A stretch of DNA of 64,000 nt, taken from Dinoroseobacter shibae DFL 12 = DSM 16493 (lineage in GTDB: Bacteria > Pseudomonadota > Alphaproteobacteria > Rhodobacterales > Rhodobacteraceae). Positions 20,998 to 64,000 of the stretch are shown piece by piece. The stretch spans positions 2,542,001 to 2,606,000 of the forward strand of contig NC_009952.1 of the NCBI RefSeq assembly GCF_000018145.1. The letters run 5' to 3'. The translations under genes were made by a program, and so were the position numbers. Every line of letters begins with the position of its first letter. Position 1 is the stretch's first letter. The notes beneath the pieces are model-generated. The model was given only the letters and a program-made list of their open reading frames with translations. It had not been told where the DNA came from and made no database searches.

Positions 20998-22107
20998 TCA
21001 GGCGGCGACATGGGTTGGGGGCGCTGCGAGGTGATCGACCAGGTCCACCAACCGGTCCGTGGCGTTCGGATGCCCGATGCGCAGCGCGGCATGGGCCATC
21101 TGCACCGCCCCGTCGGGATTGTCGAGGATCAGCGCGATCTGCTCGGCGAGTGTTGCGGGATCGAGCTTGGATTCCGGGATCAGGATCGCGGCCCCGGCCT
21201 CCACCAGCCCGCGGGCATTGGCGGTCTGGTGATCCGCCGCCGCCGCGGCATAGGGCACGAGGATCGAGGGCCGCCCGATCACCGTCAGGTCCGCCACCGT
21301 CGAGGCCCCGGAGCGGGAGATGACCAGCTGCGCCTCGGACATCCGTTTGGGCACGTCGTGGAAGAACGTCTGCACCTCGGCCCGGATCCCGGCGGCGTCA
21401 TAGGCGGCGACGACCCGGTCGAGGTCCTCGGCCCGGGCCTGATGGGCCACGCGGATACGGTCGCGCAGGGGGGCGGCCAGCCCCGCCACGGCGGTCGGCA
21501 CCACGTCCGACAGGATCCGCGCGCCCTGGCTGCCGCCCAGCACCAGCAGGCTCAGGGGCCAGTCGCCGGGGGGAATATAGGGGGCACCCGCCCGCTCCAG
21601 GATGGCGTTGCGCACCGGGTTGCCCGTGGGCGCACCCTGGACCCCTTCGGGCAGGGTCGTGGGCCAGGTGCCGCAGGCGATGGCGTGCACATGCTTGGCA
21701 AAGAGCTGGTTGACCCGGCCCAGCACGCCGTTCTGTTCGTGGATCATCCGCGGCAGGCGCAACAGGGTCGCCGCCGCCATGGCCGGGATCGCCGGGTAGC
21801 CGCCGAACCCCACCACCATCGCAGGCCGGTCGCGCAGCATGTCCAGCAGCGCCGAGGCGACCCCGGCGGCGATCTTCACCGGCACCACCACCTTGGCCAA
21901 CGCTCCGCCGCGCGCGAAGGTGGCCGAGGATTTCTCGACGATCTCGACCACATGGGGGAAGCCACCGGTATAGCGCGCGCCCCGCGCATCGGTCACCAGC
22001 TTCACCCGCCAGCCCTTGCGCAGCATCGCTTCGGCCAGCGCTTGCGCGGGGAACATATGCCCGCCCGTGCCGCCCGCTGCGATCACCAGAAGTGGTGCCG
22101 TGCCCAT
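20998..22107 (-). CDS. murG: UDP-GlcNAc:lipid I GlcNAc transferase MurG
   Basis: 369 residues, GT28 family. The acceptor-side G-loop [21 protein letters not shown] is at the N-terminus, the second G-loop [13 protein letters not shown] is around residue 190, and [35 protein letters not shown] is the UDP-GlcNAc site. It is a peripheral inner-membrane enzyme that completes lipid II. Three bases separate it from ftsW upstream. Confidence 0.95.
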
Positions 22108-22110
22108 ACC

Positions 22111-23277
22111 CTATCTTCCCCGCTTGATCAGAACGTCTTCGATCTGCCCCTGCGGGCGGCTGCGCGTAAAGGCCAAAAGACAGCCCAGCGCGATGCCCGT
22201 CGCAATGAGCGAGGATCCGCCATAACTGACCAGCGGCAGGGTCATGCCCTTGGCCGGCAGCATCCGGACCGCGACGCCCATGTTGATGATGGCCTGGGCG
22301 GCAAAGAGCAGCACCAGACCCGTGCCCGCAAGCCGCGCGAAAGGGTCGCGTTCCTTCATCAGGCGCCACAGGCTGCGCAGCACGATAGTGGCATAAAGCG
22401 CAATGATAACAAGGACCAGAAGGACGCCGTATTCCTCGGCCGCCACGGCGATGATGAAGTCGGTATGCGCGTCGGGGAGCACCCATTTCACTTGCCCCTC
22501 GCCCACGCCGACGCCGAAGAACCCGCCCTCGCGGATCGCGTTGGTGGCGTAGCCGAGCTGCGTCGTCGGGTCGACTTCGGTGGACAGGAAGCCGTCGATC
22601 CGGCGGGCGAAATGCTCCGACGCGTTATAAGCCACGACGCCCGCGAGCCCCACCATGCCCACCAGCGCCACGACCAGCAGCATCGAGGCCCCGGCCACGA
22701 AATACATCGCCGCCCAGCCGAACAGGATCAGGCAGGCCTGGCCGAAATCGGGCTGGATCACCAGGAAGGCCACCACGATGAGCGCCACGGCGAGCGACAG
22801 GCTCCGCCCTGGGGGGCCGTTGATCTCCTGCGCGGCGGCGAGCAGCCAGGCGCACAGGATGATGAAGGCGGGCTTGAGGAATTCCGACGGCTGCACGCTG
22901 GCAAATCCCAAGGAATACCAGCGGGTTGCCCCCTTGCCGAAGTCGGTTCCGAACAGCGGAAGGAAGGCCAGCGCCAGGAAGGTCGCCACGAACAGGAGCA
23001 CCCCCATCCGGCGGATCATCCGCGGGTCGCCGAGCGACAGAATCCCCATCACGCCCAGCGCCATGGTGCCGAAAATCAGCTGCCGTTCGACATAGTGAAA
23101 CGGCTGCAACCCGTTGCGCGTGGCAAGCGGCGGAGAGGCCGCGAGACCGAGCAGGAGCCCGATCGCGAAGAGCCCGAGGATCGCCAGGAGGCTCACCTTG
23201 TCCACGGTCCGCCACCACCGGGGGAGCACCGGCTCCCGCGCGCCGGACCGGACGGTGCCATACACCATCTCTGTCAT
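22111..23277 (-). CDS. ftsW: SEDS peptidoglycan glycosyltransferase FtsW
   Basis: 388 residues and about ten membrane helices of the SEDS family. Conserved segments include KGATRWYSLGFASVQPSEFLKPAFIILCAWLL, LVIQPDFGQACLILFGWAAMYF (the catalytic Asp region) and the C-terminal LPLVSYGGSSLIATGIALGCLL. It polymerises septal lipid II with FtsI. In related genomes murD normally lies just upstream; here the upstream neighbour is a divergent RTX gene, and murD is at 52.4-53.8 kb. Confidence 0.95.
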   Translation of the reverse strand: MTEMVYGTVRSGAREPVLPRWWRTVDKVSLLAILGLFAIGLLLGLAASPPLATRNGLQPFHYVERQLIFGTMALGVMGILSLGDPRMIRRMGVLLFVATFLALAFLPLFGTDFGKGATRWYSLGFASVQPSEFLKPAFIILCAWLLAAAQEINGPPGRSLSLAVALIVVAFLVIQPDFGQACLILFGWAAMYFVAGASMLLVVALVGMVGLAGVVAYNASEHFARRIDGFLSTEVDPTTQLGYATNAIREGGFFGVGVGEGQVKWVLPDAHTDFIIAVAAEEYGVLLVLVIIALYATIVLRSLWRLMKERDPFARLAGTGLVLLFAAQAIINMGVAVRMLPAKGMTLPLVSYGGSSLIATGIALGCLLAFTRSRPQGQIEDVLIKRGR

Positions 23278-52433: not shown

Positions 52434-53828
52434 TCATAAGTACTTCGCCACCTCGGCGATGAAGTCCTCGCCGCGTCGCTCGAAATTGTCGTACTGATCG
52501 AAGCTGGCCGCGGCAGGGGCAAGCAGGATCGTATCGCCCGGTTCGGCTTCGGCCACGGCTGCGGCCACGGCGCGGGCCATGGTCTCGCAGACCTCGTGGG
52601 GAGTGTCGGGAATGCCCAGGGCGAACTCGGCCGCCGAGCGCCCGATCAGGTAGGCCTTGCGGACCCCGCCCAGATGGGGGGTGAGGGCCGCGAGACCGCC
52701 CTCCTTCTCCAGTCCGCCGGCGATCCAGCGGATGCGGTCGAAAGCCTGTAGCGCCTTGGCCGCGCTGTCCACGTTGGTGGCCTTGCTGTCGTTGACGAAG
52801 GTGACGCCGTTCGCGGTGCCGACGATCTGGCTGCGGTGCGGCAGCCCCTTGAAACTGGCAAAGCCCGCCTCGATCTGGCGCGGGGCAAGGCCGAGGCTGC
52901 GGCAGGCGGCATAGGCGCAGGCGGCGTTCTGGTGGTTATGGGCCCCGGGCAGGCCCGGGATCGGGCGCAGGTCGATGGACCCGGTCTGGCGGCCCTTGCG
53001 GTGCTCGGCCAGGAACCCCTTGCGCGCGCTAACGACCCAGCCGGGCCCCGAGGGTTTGGCGGAGGTCACCCGGATCACCCGGTCATCGGCGGGCGCCACG
53101 GAGAGCTGGGAGGCGAGGAACAGGCCCTCGGGCTCGTCGGTGCCGATCACCGCACGGTCCGGCCCGCCGATGGTGAAGAGCCGCCGCTTGGCCGCGAAAT
53201 ACCCACCCATGCCACCGTGACGGTCCAGGTGGTCGGGGCTGAGATTGGTGAAGACCGCGATGTCGGGGGTCAGGGCGCGGGCAAGCTCGGTCTGGTAGCT
53301 CGACAGCTCCAAGACGACGATGCCGCCATCCTCGCCCGGGTCGATGTCGAGCACGCCGCGGCCGATATTGCCGGCCAGCTGGGTGGGCCGGCCCGCCGCC
53401 GTCAGGACGTGGTGGATCAGCGCGGAGGTGGTGGATTTGCCGTTGGAGCCGGTGACCGCGATGACCCGCGGGAGGCTGTCGAACTCGTCCCAGTCCGGCG
53501 TGGCGAAGGAGCGGAAGAACAGGCCGATATCGTTGTCCACGGGGATGCCGAGGGACATGGCCAGCGCGATCGTGGGATTCGGGGTCGGGTAGAGATGGGG
53601 GATGCCCGGCGAGGTGATCAGGGCCGCGACCCCGTCGAAGGCGTCGGCGTGTTTGAGGGGCGCGCAGGCGAAGCCCTCGGCCTCGGCCCGGGCGCGGGCC
53701 TCGGTATTGTCGTCCCAGCACAGCGGCGTGGCACCGCCGGCGCGCAGGGCGCGGGCCGTGGCGAGGCCGGAGCGGCCCAGTCCGAGCACAGCGATGGTTT
53801 CGCCGGAAAATCCGCGCACGGGGATCAT
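52434..53828 (-). CDS. murD: UDP-N-acetylmuramoylalanine--D-glutamate ligase
   Basis: 464 residues from the ATG at 53828 ([28 protein letters not shown]), with CAGGAG upstream; the longer frame to 54002 is repeat-bearing intergenic DNA. Mur ligase with P-loop [18 protein letters not shown] around residue 115, [30 protein letters not shown] and C-terminal [17 protein letters not shown]. Adds D-Glu to UDP-MurNAc-Ala. Same strand as, but 29 kb away from, the ftsW-murG-murC-murB block; no mraY or murF is beside it either. Confidence 0.95.
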
Positions 53829-53906: not shown

Positions 53907-53928
53907 CAAGCGCCTTCGAAGGCGCTTG
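53907..53928. repeat. 22-bp perfect palindrome, copy 1
   Basis: CAAGCGCCTTC followed immediately by its reverse complement. An identical copy lies at 54029-54050. Both are in the 227-bp gap between murD and the lysozyme gene; probably REP-like or part of a termination region. Confidence 0.7.
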
Positions 53929-54028: not shown

Positions 54029-54050
54029 CAAGCGCCTTCGAAGGCGCTTG
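54029..54050. repeat. 22-bp perfect palindrome, copy 2
   Basis: Identical to 53907-53928 and only 5 bp downstream of the lysozyme stop codon. It could act as an RNA hairpin ending that transcript, though no T-run follows. Confidence 0.7.
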
Positions 54051-54055
54051 CGGGC

Positions 54056-54997
54056 TCAGCGGGTGGGTTGGACGCGGACGTTCACGTCCACATCGCCGCT
54101 AACCCCCGGCACCGCACCCTTGTCGGTGAACTGCCACATCACGGTGTTGAACCCCTCCAGCGCCGCAGGCGCCGAGCCGCTGTCGGTGGGGGCTGCCGTG
54201 TAGTCCGCCAGCCAGACCGGGTAGCGCTTGCCCAGGTCCGCCCCTGCATCGCCGATCCGCGCGGTCCACCAGTCGCGATTGGTGTAGATCACCGGGGTCT
54301 GGCCCGTGGCCAGGGCCACCGCACGCATCCAGGTGTCCACGGCGGCGACGATCTGGGCCGGAGTTTTCTGTTCCCAGCGGTCGACTTTCTTCTCGGTATA
54401 GTCCCATTCCACGTCCAGAACCGGCGGCAGGTCGCTGGAGCTGCGCGCGTCATAGACCGACAGGAAGAACCGCGCCTGGGCCGCCGGATCCGACAGCGCC
54501 GACAGGAAGTGATAGGCCCCACGCGGGATCTTGGCCTTGCCCGCTTCGTTCCAGCTGGTGTCGAACTCGGAATCCTTCACCGTCCGGCCCTGGCTGGCCT
54601 TGATATAGACATAAGCCACCTTGCTCTGGGCCACGTCTGCCCAAGTGATGTTGATCTTCGCGTTGCCCTTCTGGATGTTGTAATGTGACACGTCGATGCC
54701 GAACTCGGTGCTGCCTTCGGGTACGTTCGTGGGAAAGCCGAAGGCGCCGCCCGGGGGGATCACCGATGCCGTGGCCGGCGTCCCGGCGGTTGCGGCGGGC
54801 GCTTCCGTGCCGTCCTGCGTCGCGGGGGCCGTCGGGGAGGGTGTGCCGGACGCCGCGGCGGTCTCCCGCGCGATGGCCTTGCGCTCGGCCCGGGTCAGTT
54901 CCCGGGACGAGATGTCCGCGGGCGGAACCGTGATCAGGGCCAGGGCGAGGACTGTGAGCACGGCCAGCAGGATGGCGCTGAGAGCGGGCATCGACAT
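54056..54997 (-). CDS. GH25 lysozyme (N,O-diacetylmuramidase), membrane-anchored or exported
   Basis: 313 residues, ATG preceded by AAAGGAG. Residues about 5-25 ([20 protein letters not shown]) form an uncleaved anchor or signal peptide. Residues about 45-95 form an Ala/Thr/Pro linker, and the rest is a GH25 barrel: [35 protein letters not shown], catalytic LDVEWD (DxE motif) and VIYTNRDWW. It cleaves the glycan strands of peptidoglycan. It lies 51 bp downstream of the eCIS genes on the same strand, so it may be co-transcribed and help the particle assemble or exit. A housekeeping wall-remodelling role is equally possible. Confidence 0.88.
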
Positions 54998-55048: not shown

Positions 55049-56080
55049 TCAGACAGTGACATAAATCGTGGACCAGGCCTCGGGGCCGTTGGGCCCCTGT
55101 TCGAGGGCGGTGTTGGCGGGCCCCGGCTGCGGCAGCTGCCGGGGCGGCGGGGGTGGTCCTGCCTCCGCCGGCAGGGTCAGGGCGATGCGGCGGGCGGGGG
55201 CGGGGCGCAGGGCCAGCGGGATCGGCCCCGCGCTCTCGCAGAGCCACACGGTGCGCCCGTTGCGCATCGCCTTGCGCGGGGCGGCAAAGCGCAGCGGGTC
55301 GGGCGCGCTGATGGCCGCGGCGCCGAGATCGCGCGCAGCGCTTCGGCTCTGGAGCACATAGCGCCAGCGCGGGGCGCGGGCCCGGAACCGCACGGTCAGG
55401 GTTCTGGGTGTCTCCCGTGGCCCCACCGGCGTGGCACCCGCCAGCGGCACCGTCACCAGCCCGTAGAGCCGCGCGGGCGGTTCGTCCGACAGGATCAGGT
55501 CGCGCAGCGGCTGGTCGTCGACCTCCAGCCGGTAGGTGCCCTCGGGCACTTCATTCGCCGCAAGGTCGAGGTGACTGTGTTTGCCCGGCGGCAGCGGCGC
55601 GCTCCAGGCGGGGTCGTCGGCGGGGTCGGCGCCAAGGGCGCGCAGGGCCATCCGGCCGCCCGCGACCGCCGCCTCGAGCAACACGCGCCCGCGCCGGGCC
55701 ACCACCGGAAGGGTCCGACCGCGGGCACTGGGAAGGCTGCCCTGCGGATCGAGCCCGCCGGGGCCGAGGCTGAGCGCATCGCGGGCACTTTCGGCGCCCC
55801 AGTCCGGCTCGGTCACAAGTGCGAAATCCGGATCGCGCAAGCCCAGTCGGAAGGTCACCAGCGCCGGCGCCGCGGGGTCGAGCGCGGGAGGCGCGCCAAA
55901 GGGCATCTGGGCATAGATCTCCGCCACATCCTGGGTCACCCGCAGCCGACAACAGCCCCGCCGCAGAGCCGCGGCGGTCTCGGGCGTCGGCTCGAAGGCG
56001 ATCGGCACCGCGGCGGGGTCATAGTAGTCATGGGCGATCCGCAGGCTGAGGAGCGGCGCGAGGGTGATCCCGATGGTCAT
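55049..56080 (-). CDS. Uncharacterised eCIS-associated protein
   Basis: 343 residues starting at an ATG after AGGAGACAGGATA. I do not recognise a named domain. The N-terminus MTIGITLAPLLSLRIAHDYYD looks like a beta-strand entry. The whole is rich in Ala, Pro and Arg with alternating hydrophobic residues (probable beta-sandwich), has no signal peptide or membrane helix, and ends PEAWSTIYVTV. Segments GTYRLEVDDQPLRDLILSD and RTLTVRFRARAPRWRYVLQSRS look like immunoglobulin-like strands. It directly follows the DUF4255 gene (43 bp gap), so a structural, capping or accessory role in the injection particle is the natural guess. Confidence 0.6.
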   Translation of the reverse strand: MTIGITLAPLLSLRIAHDYYDPAAVPIAFEPTPETAAALRRGCCRLRVTQDVAEIYAQMPFGAPPALDPAAPALVTFRLGLRDPDFALVTEPDWGAESARDALSLGPGGLDPQGSLPSARGRTLPVVARRGRVLLEAAVAGGRMALRALGADPADDPAWSAPLPPGKHSHLDLAANEVPEGTYRLEVDDQPLRDLILSDEPPARLYGLVTVPLAGATPVGPRETPRTLTVRFRARAPRWRYVLQSRSAARDLGAAAISAPDPLRFAAPRKAMRNGRTVWLCESAGPIPLALRPAPARRIALTLPAEAGPPPPPRQLPQPGPANTALEQGPNGPEAWSTIYVTV

Positions 56081-56123
56081 TATCCTGTCTCCTGAAGGCT
56101 ACATCCAAGACGGTGGGGCATGG

Positions 56124-56690
56124 TCAGGTCTCCACGGCGGTGGAGGTGATACGCGAGACATCGGTGCCGACGAAGCCGTCCTCGACCACCAGCATCCGCG
56201 CCTTGTAGACCGCCGAGGGCAGGTAGGTGCCGCCGAGCACGGTCCACAGGTTGTGGATCGATTGCAGGTCGAGATCGCGCCATTCCACCGACAGCCTCTC
56301 GATCCCCTCGGGCAGGGTCGGGTCTGATTGCGGGGTGAAAAGCGGTCGGGCCTGGAAGGCGCCGATGCCCGCCGAGAGCACCCGCAGCCCGTCGGCATAC
56401 TGGTCGGGAAAATTGGCCGACAGCAGGAAGATCAGGTTGATGTTCAGGGGCTGGGGCGCGCGCCGGGTGACGCCGCCCTCTTCGCGGTAGACCCGGCCGG
56501 TATTGCCGGCAGTGCCCTCGCGTTCGATGTTCACCAGCGTCAGGACGAGGCGGTTGGCGGTTTCCTCCCCCCCTGCCCCGGGATCGCGCGCAACGCTTTC
56601 GAGCGCCACCAGATCGCTGGCGGCGGCAAAGCGTGTGCGCAGTTCCTCGTTCAGCATGGCGGTGAGGAATTTCAGGGTGGCATCGATCAT
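56124..56690 (-). CDS. DUF4255 protein, Pvc16/Afp16-like tube or sheath cap
   Basis: 188 residues from the ATG at 56690 ([21 protein letters not shown]). DUF4255 features: VLTLVNIEREGTAGN near residue 55, then LNINLIFLLSANFPDQYADGLRVLSAGIGAFQARPLFTP and the C-terminal half with IERLSVEWRDLDLQSIHNLWTVLGGTYLPSAVYKARMLVV, a pattern shared by the terminator proteins that cap the tube/sheath of PVC and Afp particles. It overlaps the ATPase gene by four bases. This is one of the best single markers of an extracellular contractile injection system. Confidence 0.9.
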   Translation of the reverse strand: MIDATLKFLTAMLNEELRTRFAAASDLVALESVARDPGAGGEETANRLVLTLVNIEREGTAGNTGRVYREEGGVTRRAPQPLNINLIFLLSANFPDQYADGLRVLSAGIGAFQARPLFTPQSDPTLPEGIERLSVEWRDLDLQSIHNLWTVLGGTYLPSAVYKARMLVVEDGFVGTDVSRITSTAVET

Positions 56691-58018
56691 GGTCCGGCTC
56701 CTGCCAGTTTCCCGGCCTTGTGCAATTCGCGGGCGATGGCCGCGCGCAGACTTGCGGCGGTGACGGTCGGGGCGCCTGCGCGCAGACGTGTCAGGTGGGC
56801 GGTGCGGGCGGTGTTGACGATCTCGCCGCCCGACAGCGCGACCTCCTCGGCCAGCGCCACAAGGTCGACCTCCGGGGCCAGAAGGTGGGCCTCGGGAAAG
56901 GCGTTGCGCCAGATCGCCAACCGCGCCGCGGGGTCGGGCAGATCGAACCGGATCATCGACTGGAACCGGCGGGCGAAGGCCGCGTCGATATTGCTGCGCA
57001 GGTTGGTGGCCAGCAGCACGATGCCTGCGAAATCCTCGACTCGTTGCAGGATGTAGGACACTTCCTGGTTGGCGTAGCGGTCGTTGGATTGCGTCACGTC
57101 CGTGCGCTTGCCGAAGAGCGAGTCCGCTTCGTCGAAGAACAGGATCCAGCCCTCCGCCTCGGCCTGGTCGAAGACGCGGGCGAGGTTCTTTTCGGTCTCG
57201 CCGATCCATTTCGACACCACCAGAGACAGGTCGACCCGGTAGACATCGCGCCCGCTGCGCTGACCCAGGAGCGCGGCACTGAGGGTCTTGCCCGTGCCCG
57301 AGGGGCCGTAGAACAGGCTGCGATAACCTGGAAGGATCAGCCGCCCGATCCCGGCGGTCGCGGCCAGCGCCGCACCGTGCTCGGTCCAGGCGAGCACCTC
57401 TTCGAGCTCGTGCAGGGTGCGCTCGGGCAGGATCAGATCCTCCCAGCGCATCTGTGTTTCCAGCCGCTTGGCCGGGAAGTCGGGCCGAAACTCGGGCCGG
57501 TGCCGGGTGCCCAGCAGGATCCGGCCCACGAATTGCGGCGCCAGCTCCAGAGGGGCGTGCAGACCTGGGGCGTCCAGCCCGCGCAGAGGCAACAGGAACC
57601 CCCCGGCGACCAGCGCCCCGTCGGCACTCAGCATTTCAAGCGCAGCGCGGCGGTCGCCCTCGGTGTCGAGCAGGAACATCGCCGTGCCGAGGCTGGGCTG
57701 AGCCCCGCCCTCGGGCCGGGCTGCCAGGCAGAACTCGGAAAACACCCGATCCGTGGCGGGGTTACGGGTGAGGAACGGGTCCAGCGCCTCGGGCCGCAAG
57801 ACCGGGGCCAGCGCCAGCGCGAGCAGCAGGCGACCCTCCGGGGGGACTTGCGCCCGGCGCAGCGCCCGGGCCAGCGGGCAGGTCTTGGGGCTGAGTCTGG
57901 GCGGCGAAGGCGAGGCGGCCTGCCCGGTGCCGAAATGGCGCGCGATCCGGGCGGCAATGGCGGCCTCCAGCCAGTCAAGCTCGGCCTTGAGGGTTCGGGA
58001 AGTGGCGATCATGTCCAT
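56687..58018 (-). CDS. eCIS AAA+ ATPase (Pvc15/Afp15-like)
   Basis: 443 residues from an ATG at 58018 ([21 protein letters not shown]; an ATG at 58012 is also possible). The frame is open further upstream only as a shadow of the tape-measure gene. The N-terminal about 200 residues are helical and variable; residues about 210-430 are an AAA+ module with Walker [14 protein letters not shown], Walker [19 protein letters not shown], sensor-1 [20 protein letters not shown] and a C-terminal lid. eCIS clusters carry one such ATPase, thought to act in particle assembly. The start overlaps the upstream gene by ten bases. Confidence 0.9.
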
Positions 58019-61000
58019 GAGACGTGCAGCGCCTCCGGCATCCAGGGCAAGGCCACCACCGACCACGGCCATGGGATACCCCCCAAAAGCATGTCGAACG
58101 GGCCCTTGGTGACCTGCAGCGTCAGGGCGGCGTCCGGGCCGGGGCGGCGGATCACCCCGTGGCGCATCACGAAGGTCTCGCGCAAGGCGTCGGCATCGGT
58201 ATTGGCGAAGGCCGCGACCTGCGACGCGGTGAAGCCGAGCAGGCTCTCGGCCAGCGCGGCCTCCTCCGGGGTCGCGGCACCGCCCGGGGCAAGAGGCGTC
58301 GCAAGGGGCATCCCGCAAAGCAGCTTGGGCAGGGCCAGCTCGTGCTCGGGCAGGTCCATGCGTCCGCTGGCCAGCAGAGCCAGCAGGTGGACGGCCCTGG
58401 GGCGGCTGTCGTCACGCAGCCCACCGGAGGGATCGAGGCAATCGCTGCGCGCGAGATAGGTCGCGAGGTGGACATGGAGCAGGACCAGCCCCGCCAGCCC
58501 GGTATGGATTTCGCCCGCGGGCGCAAGGGGCGCGGGCGGGGGGGCGAGATGGGCAAGCAGGATCTCGACCGAGGTGTCCAAAGCCGCGGCCAGGGCTGCG
58601 TGAAACGCCCCCGGCCCTTCGGGCGCGTCGATCGGCGCGGCGGCATGGGCCGCGGCGAGGCGCGCCGCCAGATCCCGCGGATCAAGGCCGATGCCCGCCC
58701 GGCGGAGCGCCCGGGCGACGGTTTCGAGCGCATCGACGTGGCGGGCCGGAGGCGTGGGCAGGCCCATGGGAGAGAGATGGTCCATCAGGGACCCGAGCGG
58801 AGTGCCCAAACCCGCCGCCAGTGCCGCGTGGAACGCCCCTGGCCCGTCTGGTGCATCGATCGGGGCGGCAGCATTGGCCGCCGTGAGGCGCCTGGAGAGA
58901 TCCTGCGGATCGAGACCAAGACCGGCCTGCCGCAGCCTCTGGGCGACCTGCTGCAGCGCAACCTGCGCATCCGGGCCTGGCGCCCGGGCGTCCGTGCGAT
59001 TGCCATCGGCAGGATCGGTCGGCGTAGCTCCGTCCTCGGGCGTTTCGGCGGCGAGCCCCCCCGTGACTGACCGGTCGAACGGCGATGAGGCAGATTGGTC
59101 GCGCCCACGTTCCGAAGACCGCACGCCAGCCGTGTCCTGTGCTGCAACGCCGTCCGGAGGCGCGGATGTCGGGACTGGGGATGCCCCGCGCGCCGGGGCG
59201 GGTGCCGCCGCGGTGCGGACAGTCTCCGGGGAGGTTGGGTCCGGCGTCGGGGGGGCGGCGGTTTCGGGACGCTGAGGCCGTCCTATCGGATTGCCATCCA
59301 CATGACCATCCGAGGCAGTCTCGGGCATGCGCCCGTGCGGCGGAACTTCCCCGGCGATCGGCGCAATGTCGCGCGATTTCAGAGGCGTGACATTCGGGTG
59401 GGTCTCAGCGGACGCGGAGGTGTCCAGCGCCTCCGCCAGGGCGGCGCGCAGGCTTGCCAGCTCATGCGCTGACAGGCCCGAGAGCGCCTGCCCCGCCTCG
59501 CCCTCCGGCGGCTCTGAGAGATCGCGCGCCATCCGGGCGCGCACGGTCTCCAGCGGCTGAGCGGCGCGCTCCGACGCGATCTCCGCAAGCGCCGAGAGAA
59601 CGGATTCCAGCGGCACGGGGGCCGACGGGTCCGGCCCGGACGCTGCCCCGTTCGCCCAGGCGCGGAGCGTGGCCTGGGTCAGGTCCGCAGCACTCAGTGG
59701 CACGTTCGCCACCGCCGCGAGCCACGCGGCCGCCCGGCGCGCCAGCTGCGCCTGGTCCTGGCCGAGGCGTGCGGACAGTGTCGCGGCACGTTGCGCCGGG
59801 CTGACCTGTTCCAGGGCGGCGGCAAGGGCTGCTGCCAGGGGCGGCGGCCCGGACGGCGTGACGCGGGCCGCATCGGGCCGGAGGTAGCGCGCGACCAGCG
59901 CGGTCGCAACGTCCATTGCGGCAGATGGCGTCTCGGTCGCGGCAGGCGGGCGGGGGAGCACCACCTCGGCACGCATCGGTGGCTCTTCTGCGGGGCTGCG
60001 CCCTTGGGCGCGGGTGGTGGCGGGCGGAGGGTCGGTATCCTGCACGCGGTCCCGCGGTGCGGACTCCTCCGCCTGCAGGTCGCGCAGCATCTCGATCAGG
60101 GGCGCGAAGCGGGGCTCGGCGGCGCGCCCCGATGCCAGCGCGGAGAGTTGTGCTGCGAGCGCTCCCGGCGTCTCGGCAGTCCGGCCCCGGCTTCCGGCCC
60201 GCAGAACGGCGCGTAGCCAGCGGCGGGCATCGCCCTCGAACCCCCCACCCGCAAGAAGGGTCAAGCTCGCCTCCGCCAGATGCGGACCCAGTGTGTCATC
60301 CGGCGCCGCGGCCCGCAGGATGGTCACGGCGAAGCCGCCAAGGGTCGGCAGCAGCGCCAGATGCGCCGCCTCGATCCGCGTCCAGTCCAGCGGCGAGAGC
60401 AGCGCTTGCCGCCCGGTCGGGGTCTGCAGGAGACCGGCCCAATCCATACCGATTTCGGGGGGCGCGGGCGGCGTTTCGTCGCCGCGGATATGGCTTGGCT
60501 GGCGCGGTTGGGAGGCGTCTTGCCCGTCGGGATGCGCGCCTGCGCGGACAGCCAGGACAGGGGCGGCGCCCGGATCCTGCGGCGGGGGGCGCAAGGCGGA
60601 CGGCCGCGCCGGCGCCCCCGGGTTCGGCGCGGTAAGACCCGGGGCTGTCGGGAGTGACGCCGCGGGCGCGCGCTCTCCGGAGGCGGCGGCAGCCAGCGAG
60701 TCTTCGGGCGCCGCTCGGGTGTCCTCGGACACCTCGGCCCGCGCGTCGTTGACCCGGGGCACTGCGTCGGGTGCTTGGGCCCGCGGCGGATCATCGTGCG
60801 GGGTACGTGCGGTTGTGTCGACGGGGGACCGTGCCCCGTCACGAGCGGGTAAGGGATCCGCCAAGACCGGGCCGGGCGCCTCCGTAGCCTCGGGCGCCCT
60901 GCGCGCGCCCAGTGCGGGAGGGGCGTTCGGTGGCGCGGCTCTGGGCACAACAGGCGGCGCGGTCTCGGGCGCCTGTGGTCTGGCCGGACCGACCTTGGCC

Positions 61001-62622
61001 CCCTGGCCGAGCATGTCCGGGGTATCCGGGTCGCCCCGCTGACGTGAGGGGGCGGTCGGAAAGGCCCTGGCGGTGTCTTCGGCAGGGTCCGAACCAGGCG
61101 AGGCGTTGGTCCGAGACGTGGGGTCCGGGGCGCGCGCCCCGCGATCCACCTCCGATCCTGAAGGCTGATGCGACGGCTCTGACGGGTCCTGCGGCCCATG
61201 TGACGGTGGCGCGGCAGGTGCGCGCGGGACAGGCCCGGCCGAACCTGACGACCCGATCCCCGTCGGGTCGGAAGCAGGCGGCGGGGTGTCTGTCGCACCC
61301 CCTTCGAAGACGTTCTGCGCCCTGGAGCCCCCCGGTACGGAGGATGGCCCCGGGCGGGGGACGTCTTGCGCGGGCGCTACCCGCCGGATGGGGGATGCGG
61401 ATGGACCGCTGCGCGCGGCTCCTGGGGGATCCGCTTGCGCTCCCGCAGGGGCCCGCGCCGCTGGGGATGCGGAGCGGGGGCCGGTCGGTGTGTCCAGTCC
61501 TGCGGGGAACTGTCCGGTCCCGGTCGCAGCCGGCGTGGGCGATGCCGGGTCGGCCGAGGACAAGGGCAACACTCGGTCACCTCCGGGCGGCACGCGGGCG
61601 TCCGGAGCGTCCACGGCAGGGGGCGGGCTCGGCGCGGCCGAAGGTGCCTTCGGAAGACCGGGAGACGGTGGGCGCCCAGAACCGCCCGCGGGCAAGGACC
61701 GCTCGTTCGCGGCGCCCGGCCCTTGCGGTGCGGTCGGACCTGCGGGAGCAGGGTCGGACGGGGTGGCCCCGCGGGAGCCTGCCGCTTCGGACGGATCGAC
61801 GGGATGCCCCGGCGCGGCCCGCGGCATCGGAGGCACGGCGTTTTCGGCAGGCAGATCGGCAGCGGACCCCGCGCGGCGCTGTGGCGGGGATGGTGCGGCC
61901 CGCGTGGACGGGTCCAAAGCGGCGGTTGGATCCCCGGGAACGGCAGATGTGGCTGCGCGGTCTTCCCTGGCCTCAGGCCCTGCGGCAGGCGGGGCGGAGA
62001 CCGCCGGTTGCGCCGGGGAGGCGTGCGAGAGCGGCTTGTCCGACCCGGGGAGGCCGGCCTCGGGGGCCAGCGCGGCCAGTCGGGCGCGCAGGGGCGCAGG
62101 CACATGGGTTGCCAGGCGTTGCGCCACGGCAGGCTGGTCGGCCAGCGAAGCCAGCAGCGCCCGCAAGCCGTCGGGATGGTCGGCCAGGCAGGGCTCCAGC
62201 AGGCCGGACAGCCCGGGCGCGGCGGCGCCGGGCCAGTGCGGATAGGTGCCGTGCTGGAGGTAATGGGCGAGATCACGCAGCCGGGCGGGCTGGAGCGGGC
62301 CACGGGGCATGCGAGCCCGTGCGAGCGATCCCGCCGCCGCCACCGCCTGCTCCGCGCGGTGCGCATCGAGAGCGGCGCGCAGAGCCTCGGTCAGCCGCCG
62401 GGCAAGCTCGTCTTCCAGCACGAAGGCAGGGATATCTCCCAGATCGAGCGCGAGCTGATCGAGGCGCAGGTCCACGCCCGCCTCCTCCAGCAGCTCGGTC
62501 AGCAATCCGGGCAGGCGCGCGGCGGCGAAATCACTGAGCCGGGTCTGCACCGCATCCGCCTGTTCGGGATCGGGCAGGTCAATGGCGAAGGTCAGCCGGT
62601 CTATGCGGTGATCGAGGCTCAT
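58009..62622 (-). CDS. eCIS tape-measure-like protein (CIS_TMP family), very long
   Basis: 1,537 residues. The N-terminus (IDRLTFAIDLPDPEQADAVQTRLSDF...LPGLLTELLEEAGVDLRLDQLALDLGDIP) and C-terminus (GLAGLVLLHVHLATYL..., RAVHLLALLASGR, ELALPKLLCGMPLATPL, LLGFTASQVAAF, LRETFVMRHGVI, VTKGPFDMLLGGIPWPWSVVALPWM) are the conserved ends of contractile-injection-system tape-measure proteins. Between them lie about 530 residues (about 190-720) of Pro/Ala/Gly/Ser-rich low-complexity sequence, a helical middle, and two related repeats of about 65 residues near 1220-1360 (AAPIDAPxGPGAFHAALAA in both). Known relatives, as I recall, are roughly half this length. It should set tube length. Confidence 0.85.
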   Translation of the reverse strand: MSLDHRIDRLTFAIDLPDPEQADAVQTRLSDFAAARLPGLLTELLEEAGVDLRLDQLALDLGDIPAFVLEDELARRLTEALRAALDAHRAEQAVAAAGSLARARMPRGPLQPARLRDLAHYLQHGTYPHWPGAAAPGLSGLLEPCLADHPDGLRALLASLADQPAVAQRLATHVPAPLRARLAALAPEAGLPGSDKPLSHASPAQPAVSAPPAAGPEAREDRAATSAVPGDPTAALDPSTRAAPSPPQRRAGSAADLPAENAVPPMPRAAPGHPVDPSEAAGSRGATPSDPAPAGPTAPQGPGAANERSLPAGGSGRPPSPGLPKAPSAAPSPPPAVDAPDARVPPGGDRVLPLSSADPASPTPAATGTGQFPAGLDTPTGPRSASPAARAPAGAQADPPGAARSGPSASPIRRVAPAQDVPRPGPSSVPGGSRAQNVFEGGATDTPPPASDPTGIGSSGSAGPVPRAPAAPPSHGPQDPSEPSHQPSGSEVDRGARAPDPTSRTNASPGSDPAEDTARAFPTAPSRQRGDPDTPDMLGQGAKVGPARPQAPETAPPVVPRAAPPNAPPALGARRAPEATEAPGPVLADPLPARDGARSPVDTTARTPHDDPPRAQAPDAVPRVNDARAEVSEDTRAAPEDSLAAAASGERAPAASLPTAPGLTAPNPGAPARPSALRPPPQDPGAAPVLAVRAGAHPDGQDASQPRQPSHIRGDETPPAPPEIGMDWAGLLQTPTGRQALLSPLDWTRIEAAHLALLPTLGGFAVTILRAAAPDDTLGPHLAEASLTLLAGGGFEGDARRWLRAVLRAGSRGRTAETPGALAAQLSALASGRAAEPRFAPLIEMLRDLQAEESAPRDRVQDTDPPPATTRAQGRSPAEEPPMRAEVVLPRPPAATETPSAAMDVATALVARYLRPDAARVTPSGPPPLAAALAAALEQVSPAQRAATLSARLGQDQAQLARRAAAWLAAVANVPLSAADLTQATLRAWANGAASGPDPSAPVPLESVLSALAEIASERAAQPLETVRARMARDLSEPPEGEAGQALSGLSAHELASLRAALAEALDTSASAETHPNVTPLKSRDIAPIAGEVPPHGRMPETASDGHVDGNPIGRPQRPETAAPPTPDPTSPETVRTAAAPAPARGASPVPTSAPPDGVAAQDTAGVRSSERGRDQSASSPFDRSVTGGLAAETPEDGATPTDPADGNRTDARAPGPDAQVALQQVAQRLRQAGLGLDPQDLSRRLTAANAAAPIDAPDGPGAFHAALAAGLGTPLGSLMDHLSPMGLPTPPARHVDALETVARALRRAGIGLDPRDLAARLAAAHAAAPIDAPEGPGAFHAALAAALDTSVEILLAHLAPPPAPLAPAGEIHTGLAGLVLLHVHLATYLARSDCLDPSGGLRDDSRPRAVHLLALLASGRMDLPEHELALPKLLCGMPLATPLAPGGAATPEEAALAESLLGFTASQVAAFANTDADALRETFVMRHGVIRRPGPDAALTLQVTKGPFDMLLGGIPWPWSVVALPWMPEALHVSWT

Positions 62623-64000
62623 CCTTGCACGGCGTCGCCGCGCCGCCGGGCCCGCAAGGCACGAAACTCGCGGCAGAAAAGATCATGTATCTGGCGGCGC
62701 AGGGTCTGCGAGGCCTGCGCGCCCGCCGCAAGTGCTTCGGCAGATGGGGTGCGGGTCGCACGCACGCAAAGCTGCGCGGCGCACCAGGCGGCGTAGGCCC
62801 GTGCGAAATCACGCGCCTCCTGCGGGGTCTCCCCATCGAGCCAGAGCATGGCAGGCAGGGTATGGGCAGGCATCTCCTCGGTGACGATGTCAGCCAGATA
62901 GGCCCGACGTGCCGGCGAGGTGCCCGAGGCATCCGGGGCCAGCGCGAGGGTGGCACCCCGGGCCGCGAAATCGAGCGGCATCACCACCGGGGTGAAGACC
63001 GCATCGAGCGCCCGGGCATCGCGCCCGGCCCCTTGGCAGGTGGCAACCATGCGGGCGATCCAGTCGGCGGCATGGGAGCGGGACCGGAAATTCTCCACCA
63101 CTTCGATCGAGAGCCCATTAGGACCGACGAGGCTAACGGTCGTGCCATAGCCACGCTCGGGCGACGTGGTGTAATGGGCCGGATCCGCGCCGAGCGCACG
63201 GAGTTGCGGCAGCAGCATCTCCAGCGGTGGCAGGGCGGGATCTGGCTCCAGCACCCAGTGCACCGCCCGGTCCCCGATCGCCAACCGGAAGGTCGAGCGC
63301 GGCAGGGGGGCGGAAATCGCGAAGCTGGTGCCGATCTCCTCGCGGCCGATCCTGGCCTCCAGCCCGTCATCCTGCAACAGAACGTGCTCGATCAGGAACA
63401 TGGGCGCGTCATGGCCCGACCGCAGGGCGATCCGGCGCAGCAGCGGGCAGGTCTCCGGCGCGGCGAGATCGACCCCCTGCCCCCGCCCTTGCCCGAGCGC
63501 GATCACGTCCCGCAGGAGCGCGGCCTTGCGGTCGAGCAGCCAGCGCTCGAAGATCTCCAGCGGTTGGGCCTTGTCATCGTAGAGCCGCTTCAGCTCGGCG
63601 GTGTCGATCCTCTCGCCGAACCTTGCCAGCAGGTGGTCGAGGGCACGGTTGCGCCGCGCCAGGGGGCGGTCCTGGCTGTCGCGCAGCTCCGCCAGACCGT
63701 CCTTGTAGGCCGTGAACCAGCCTTGGGTCCGGCCCGGCTCGGGTGTCTCCGGCTGGCCCAGTATCGGGCCGAGGGCAGGCGCATCGTCCGGGCTTGGCTC
63801 AGGCCGCGTCAGGGGCTGCACATGGTAGCTCGGCCCCTCGGACGGCAGGGCCAGCAGGTCCGCGGTGGCATCGAGCTGCGCAAGGTGATTGGCGAGCATC
63901 TGTTCGAAGATCGCGAGATAGGCCTTGAGCTGGCGCGCCTGGGCCTGGCGGGCATCGCGGGCGGCCCGGGTGTCGGCCACCCCCTCGGCCAGCGGGGCAC
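62619..64000 (-). CDS. eCIS baseplate-associated protein (5' partial)
   Basis: The reading frame runs off the right edge, so the N-terminus is missing; the first in-window start is a GTG at 63980 (453 residues from there). Near the visible start is LKAYLAIFEQMLANHLAQLDATADLLAL, which resembles a segment I recall from large eCIS proteins encoded directly upstream of the tape-measure gene. The rest includes FTAYKDGLAELRD, RRNRALDHLLARFGERI, a middle FLIEHVLLQDD...FAISAPLPR...FRLAIGD and a helical C-terminus. It overlaps the tape-measure gene by four bases. Exact particle position is not known to me; baseplate or spike-side is inferred from order. Confidence 0.7.
   Translation of the reverse strand, partial: APLAEGVADTRAARDARQAQARQLKAYLAIFEQMLANHLAQLDATADLLALPSEGPSYHVQPLTRPEPSPDDAPALGPILGQPETPEPGRTQGWFTAYKDGLAELRDSQDRPLARRNRALDHLLARFGERIDTAELKRLYDDKAQPLEIFERWLLDRKAALLRDVIALGQGRGQGVDLAAPETCPLLRRIALRSGHDAPMFLIEHVLLQDDGLEARIGREEIGTSFAISAPLPRSTFRLAIGDRAVHWVLEPDPALPPLEMLLPQLRALGADPAHYTTSPERGYGTTVSLVGPNGLSIEVVENFRSRSHAADWIARMVATCQGAGRDARALDAVFTPVVMPLDFAARGATLALAPDASGTSPARRAYLADIVTEEMPAHTLPAMLWLDGETPQEARDFARAYAAWCAAQLCVRATRTPSAEALAAGAQASQTLRRQIHDLFCREFRALRARRRGDAVQG

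Follow-up and report, generated by a model that had tools for sequence, protein, structure and literature searches.

A 64,000-nucleotide stretch of the Dinoroseobacter shibae DFL 12 = DSM 16493 genome (contig NC_009952.1, positions 2,542,001 to 2,606,000; hereafter the window) ends within a gene block predicted to encode a complete contractile injection system (CIS) of the extracellular contractile injection system (eCIS) superfamily, on the side of AlgoCIS and the Anabaena tCIS. Here "extracellular" is the name of the superfamily and not a demonstration of location. The core of the locus is ordinary, and what is new is a fibre-position protein of 346 amino acids carrying hydrophobic helices, together with a companion GH25 muramidase gene. 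From these two we infer, leaning towards it on balance, an anchored CIS whose fibre hairpin lies in the inner membrane of the producing cell and whose exported muramidase opens the wall.

Gene content and nearest relatives

The DNA was read past the window end, and coordinates above 64000 are window numbering extrapolated beyond it. G000 denotes the D. shibae genome (4.4 Mb; window G000:C1:2542001-2606000), other G numbers denote relative genomes and L numbers loci. Fifteen minus-strand genes form a single block from 77167 down to 55049, listed below with the divergent gene at its head and the GH25 gene at its 3' end.

77370-78425, plus strand: divergent gene of 351 codons, head of the block
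76145-77167, minus strand: reading frame for an alanine-rich protein of 340 amino acids
74568-76061, minus strand: sheath (PF17482 1.1e-13, PF04984 1.2e-7)
74086-74544 and 73591-74073, minus strand: two gp19-like tubes (PF06841 1.2e-46 and 6.7e-45)
72711-73373, minus strand: CIS_tube/LysM-side protein (PF19266 7.8e-45)
70931-72718, minus strand: spike, named from its position and from homologues in 11 other loci
70621-70920, minus strand: PAAR protein (PF05488 1.7e-23)
70167-70616, minus strand: gp25 (PF04965 2.5e-20)
66289-70149, minus strand: baseplate J (PF04865 4.7e-8)
65235-66275 (L003:10736-11776), minus strand: 346-residue fibre-position protein, between baseplate genes
62619-65219, minus strand: Cis12 baseplate protein, 866 residues (62619-64000 in the window)
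58009-62622, minus strand: tape measure protein, 1537 residues (PF19268 6.3e-68)
56687-58018, minus strand: AAA ATPase of Cis15 type (PF00004 9.4e-25), with Walker A and B strings
56124-56690, minus strand: short cap protein, Pvc16_N/DUF4255, 188 residues (PF14065 4e-33)
55049-56080, minus strand: cap adaptor of Cis16B/Alg16B type, 343 residues (profile and fold match, All3326 best)
54056-54997, minus strand: GH25 muramidase (PF01183 1.1e-38), last gene of the inserted block

The gene content of the eCIS superfamily is thus present contiguously (sheath, gp19 tube, spike/PAAR, gp25, baseplate J, tape measure, AAA and DUF4255), the spike being identified by homology only. A small reading frame (roughly 57 codons, beginning MPVEIREIV) was noted by eye in the DNA that separates the second tube gene from the LysM-side gene; we take it to resemble the small Afp6-type protein. 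A first-pass annotation, confined to the window, had read five genes as the distal part of a particle of this kind in a Roseobacter-type genome. Its tape measure, AAA+ ATPase and DUF4255 cap are borne out by the family matches above, its partial baseplate-side protein at the window end is Cis12, running on to 65219, and the gene at 55049-56080 that it left without a name can now be identified as the cap adaptor. The parts it forecast beyond 64000 were found (sheath, tubes, LysM-side protein, spike, PAAR, gp25 and baseplate J), the predicted particle genes occupying 13 kb past that position; sheath and tubes lie inside the 20 kb that had been allowed for them, and the 58009-62622 product belongs in the tape-measure family. 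The Roseobacter-type placement fits, the closest locus found being from a Roseovarius and two genomes of the D. shibae family (G102, G250) carrying loci. The particle family was also right, but the label PVC/Afp-like proved too specific: cap length, the cap adaptor, the single sheath gene and the best matches make SalCIS, AlgoCIS and the Anabaena tCIS the nearest solved systems.

PVC and Afp share the core order Cis11, Cis12, tape measure, ATPase, cap with this locus. Matches to them are weaker than those to AlgoCIS and tCIS, however, they have three sheath proteins (Pvc2-4, Afp2-4) against one here, and they are described with a larger cap and no separate adaptor. AlgoCIS resembles the locus in its short cap and cap adaptor, single sheath gene, long Cis11, and Cis12, and the 188-residue single-domain cap with separate adaptor is as described for subtype Ib (PMC8894135). 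The AlgoCIS fibre Alg19 is described as having immunoglobulin-like folds (PMC8894135), whereas the D. shibae fibre belongs to a different type that carries hydrophobic helices, and its locus ends with a GH25 gene. The cap adaptor is matched best, by profile and fold alike, by All3326 of the Anabaena tCIS (All3315-All3327), and the best solved match of Cis11 is All3317 of that system; the cap protein matches PDB 9r9n_B (5.3e-21), All3327 and the AlgoCIS cap. Pairwise matches only were used in comparing the sheath with solved sheaths. A cap adaptor homologue lies directly after the cap gene in L092 (35% identity), and G076 has one downstream of its AAA gene (31%). PF06761, the TssM/IcmF family of canonical type VI secretion systems, had no match in the D. 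shibae genome; the control was positive in E. coli, one of 14 controls.

The closest locus found, in Roseovarius 2-342, is collinear, with identities of 72% for the sheath, 88% and 68% for the tubes, 45% for Cis11, 47% for Cis12, 59% for the ATPase, 57% for the cap and 35% for the adaptor; its tape measure was matched at the two ends only, and its PAAR gene was not called by the gene picker.

The fibre and its hydrophobic helices

The N-terminus of the 346-residue protein is of fibre type, and hydrophobic helices interrupt its tailspike-like beta domain. These helices are common to the fibres of five loci, which cluster (98/97) on the spike tree, and are absent from the readable non-hairpin fibres. 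One segment reaches a hydropathy of 3.04 and is followed by a strongly positive stretch: past the second segment there are eight K/R and no D/E residues, the loop has two K/R and five D/E, and the corresponding counts in the Roseovarius fibre are 7/0 and 2/5. Under the positive-inside rule this charge pattern would place both ends of the fibre in the cytoplasm. The two fibres are 48% identical and the hydrophobic segments are kept. The first segment is weak (hydropathy 0.92-1.29) in the three other hairpin members, so that the protein may span the membrane only once or have a re-entrant first helix. In G134 and G379, proteins of ordinary fibre-like appearance located between Cis11 and Cis12 share this N-terminus, and the G379 fibre has an end that, by eye, presumably resembles a peptidase-S74-type tail.

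Searches of PDB with the fibre, as single sequence and as profile, found no relative; a match to a designed pentatricopeptide protein (0.027) was rejected, being spread over repeats that were individually weak. With Foldseek, neither PDB nor BFVD yielded a match at E ≤ 0.001, and VIA-align returned no CIS fibre among the matches listed, which does not exclude one. A class-wide search with three fibres returned the D. shibae genome alone (1/385), in a sample whose listing lacked the family members known from other searches, and one locus was found in the genus Roseovarius (1/84). No plasmid matched at E ≤ 1e-3, and 29 stretches of viral contigs fitted the fibre pattern with none confirmed. An alignment scan of genome contigs recovered at least three loci, a lower bound because G076 was not returned. 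Two side observations were made on related loci. In G134 (L027) and G150 (L031:7042-10377) a protein of 1084 or 1111 residues with three C-terminal transmembrane (TM) segments directly follows the ATPase gene, perhaps another route of membrane contact. The baseplate J gene at L036:220-5614 (G250) is split over several frames, through decay or assembly error.

Membrane-held systems are known from other lineages. In Anabaena the CIS is kept in thylakoids by a TM helix of Cis13 together with an extension of Cis12, nine of 14 particles were free when the Cis13 TM part was missing, and that TM domain was reported from filamentous cyanobacteria only (PMC8894136). The Anabaena system would work alike if the D. 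shibae fibre is a membrane anchor. Its TM helix, however, is C-terminal and sits on a triple alpha helix as described, whereas the helices here interrupt a beta domain; this fibre-like protein has hydrophobic helices, but it had no sequence match to solved Cis13 and differs in architecture. By length there is no counterpart of the tCIS Cis12 extension (residues 610-1100 of All3315), which was not itself searched for: Cis12 has 866 residues here, 1335 in All3315 and 804-966 in the other solved Cis12 chains listed. Membrane-bound tCIS fibres are mentioned in a 2026 catalogue covering 3445 eCIS fibres, whose main text does not contain the word transmembrane (PMC12923769). Literature searches on CIS in Rhodobacter, Roseobacter or alphaproteobacteria, on GH25 and on membrane-anchored fibres, at the level of titles and abstract openings, found no such system described.

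The companion muramidase and the insertion site

The GH25 gene begins at the 3' end of the block, 51 bases beyond the cap adaptor gene. Its product has an N-terminal hydrophobic helix (residues 6-24, Kyte-Doolittle hydropathy 2.80), consistent with export, and matches a PHROG endolysin at 7.5e-37. In Roseovarius 2-342 a GH25 gene also follows the cap adaptor (36-46% identity), and the strings FGIDVSH and LDVEWD, which we take to be catalytic, are common to both. The 3' end could be read in three of the hairpin loci, and GH25 is present in two of them (G000 and L092) but not in G076. That GH25 is an old neighbour of murD was considered and rejected: matches occurred in seven of 20 other genomes, at 29-36% identity, and never on murD's contig.

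The block and the divergent gene sit within a cell-division and wall cluster, between mraY (78435 on) and murD (52434-53828), which lie 24.6 kb apart. The spacing is about 50-1400 bases in all ten relatives whose murD region was fetched, a subset of the 17 other genomes in which murD was matched at the cut-off used; five are congeners, and in one of the ten (G010) murD is turned round. CIS_TMP is present in one of six genomes of the genus, four of which reach at least 90% completeness, and a sheath in 13 of 394 family genomes at E ≤ 1e-40. Given the adjacency in congeners and this presence in one of six, the simplest reading is that the block was inserted in this lineage. A promoter-like pair read by eye just upstream of murD (TTGCNG-17-CATCTT) also occurs in the congener G003, and murD may have kept its own promoter. 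The flanks fetched for other loci contained no mraY, murE, murF or murD match, so the insertion site is not conserved.

Several further features of these surroundings were recorded. At L100:4237-7869 (G250:C87, about 16-20 kb), genes named by eye as RodA-like, penicillin-binding-protein-like and MreD-like lie several kb from the sheath of this second hairpin locus, which may be coincidence. The wall cluster is opened a second time at 23700-52200 of the window, where murD is parted from ftsW (22111-23277) and murG (20998-22107; names by eye) by about 28 kb in which transport and catabolic genes predominate; in the congener G003 only about 2.5 kb separates murD from murC. A perfect 20-base palindrome, AAGCGCCTTCGAAGGCGCTT, lies between GH25 and murD in two copies (53908-53927 and 54030-54049); the genome has five sites, four of them forming two pairs about 120-130 bases apart. 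Between the divergent gene and the particle block stands a perfect dyad, TTGTGGA-N9-TCCACAA (77253-77275; L004:5753-5775), perhaps a shared operator. It is not clearly above chance, with one genome match at one mismatch against two for the reversed control, and the Roseovarius upstream region holds matches with three mismatches only.

Four genes of these loci were considered as possible effectors. In eCIS operons cargo genes tend towards the 3' end (PMC8213781), and in Roseovarius an unrelated gene of 747 residues directly follows GH25. No Pfam match at E ≤ 0.1 was found for the 351-residue gene (read as 335 residues), the 340-residue gene (a chance match at 2.5), the Roseovarius 747-residue gene or a 321-residue gene of G102, nor significant similarity among the four. 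The 351-residue divergent gene carries, by eye, the string GSSVTGKSG...SDIDVGVVG, which we take to resemble a polymerase-beta nucleotidyltransferase motif; no library match supports that reading. A second, different contractile locus lies about 103 kb past the window end (G000:C1:2709454-2730398), with sheath, gp19-like tube (by eye), gp25, a weak Tail_P2_I, DUF6519, an AAA protein with winged helix and its own Pvc16_N protein; DUF6519 is the eBAP5 fibre domain (PMC12923769).

Proposed mechanism and alternatives

In the anchored arrangement that we favor, the N-terminal domain of the fibre would attach to the Cis12/Cis11 baseplate, and the hairpin within the tailspike-type beta domain would sit in the producer's inner membrane with both ends cytoplasmic, keeping a loaded particle pressed to the envelope from inside. 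Exported GH25 would then cut the wall locally and the tube would be fired outward; alternatively, the enzyme may act globally, and lysis would expose the anchored particle.

An ordinary released eCIS, with the hairpin buried in the fibre trimer or entering a target membrane after release and GH25 only lysing the producer, is somewhat unlikely. A segment of hydropathy 3.04 followed by a positive stretch is expected on general grounds to enter the producer's own membrane during synthesis, and readable non-hairpin fibres do without such helices. Nevertheless, the core parts of released systems are present, the muramidase resembles phage endolysins, and AlgoCIS, the closest marine solved system, is described as compatible with an eCIS mode (PMC8894135). 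The 346-residue protein might instead be no particle part but a membrane protein in its own right, one that would capture the particle and set off firing in the manner of Streptomyces CisA, a membrane protein required for contraction (PMC12237407). Both genes lie near or between baseplate genes, but CisA as described is not fibre-like, having a single TM segment, a periplasmic domain and an N-terminus that is unstructured, while the N-terminus here is that of ordinary-looking fibres in G134 and G379; this explanation is improbable. Patchy presence (CIS_TMP in one of six congeners, sheath in 13 of 394 family genomes) would suit a decayed or silent remnant whose hydrophobic segments have no present role. 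It is hard to credit, as the genes have open reading frames and follow the order of Roseovarius 2-342 (35-88% identity), and the hydrophobic segments are kept at 48% fibre identity.

If the anchored arrangement is correct, loci named extracellular from homology may not be extracellular, and given membrane-type helices in the fibre, particles may escape a search confined to culture supernatant. We further propose, tentatively, that a proteobacterial CIS lineage left free-particle life when a hydrophobic hairpin, inserted into the fibre's receptor-binding domain, made an organ of target recognition into an anchor in the producer's inner membrane, independently of the cyanobacterial route, with a dedicated muramidase letting the machine act through or out of the wall. 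Such a change from fibre to anchor in Rhodobacteraceae would show a route from a free nanosyringe to a membrane-bound one, and, since related fibres lack the hairpin, the step would be testable by removal of one hairpin.
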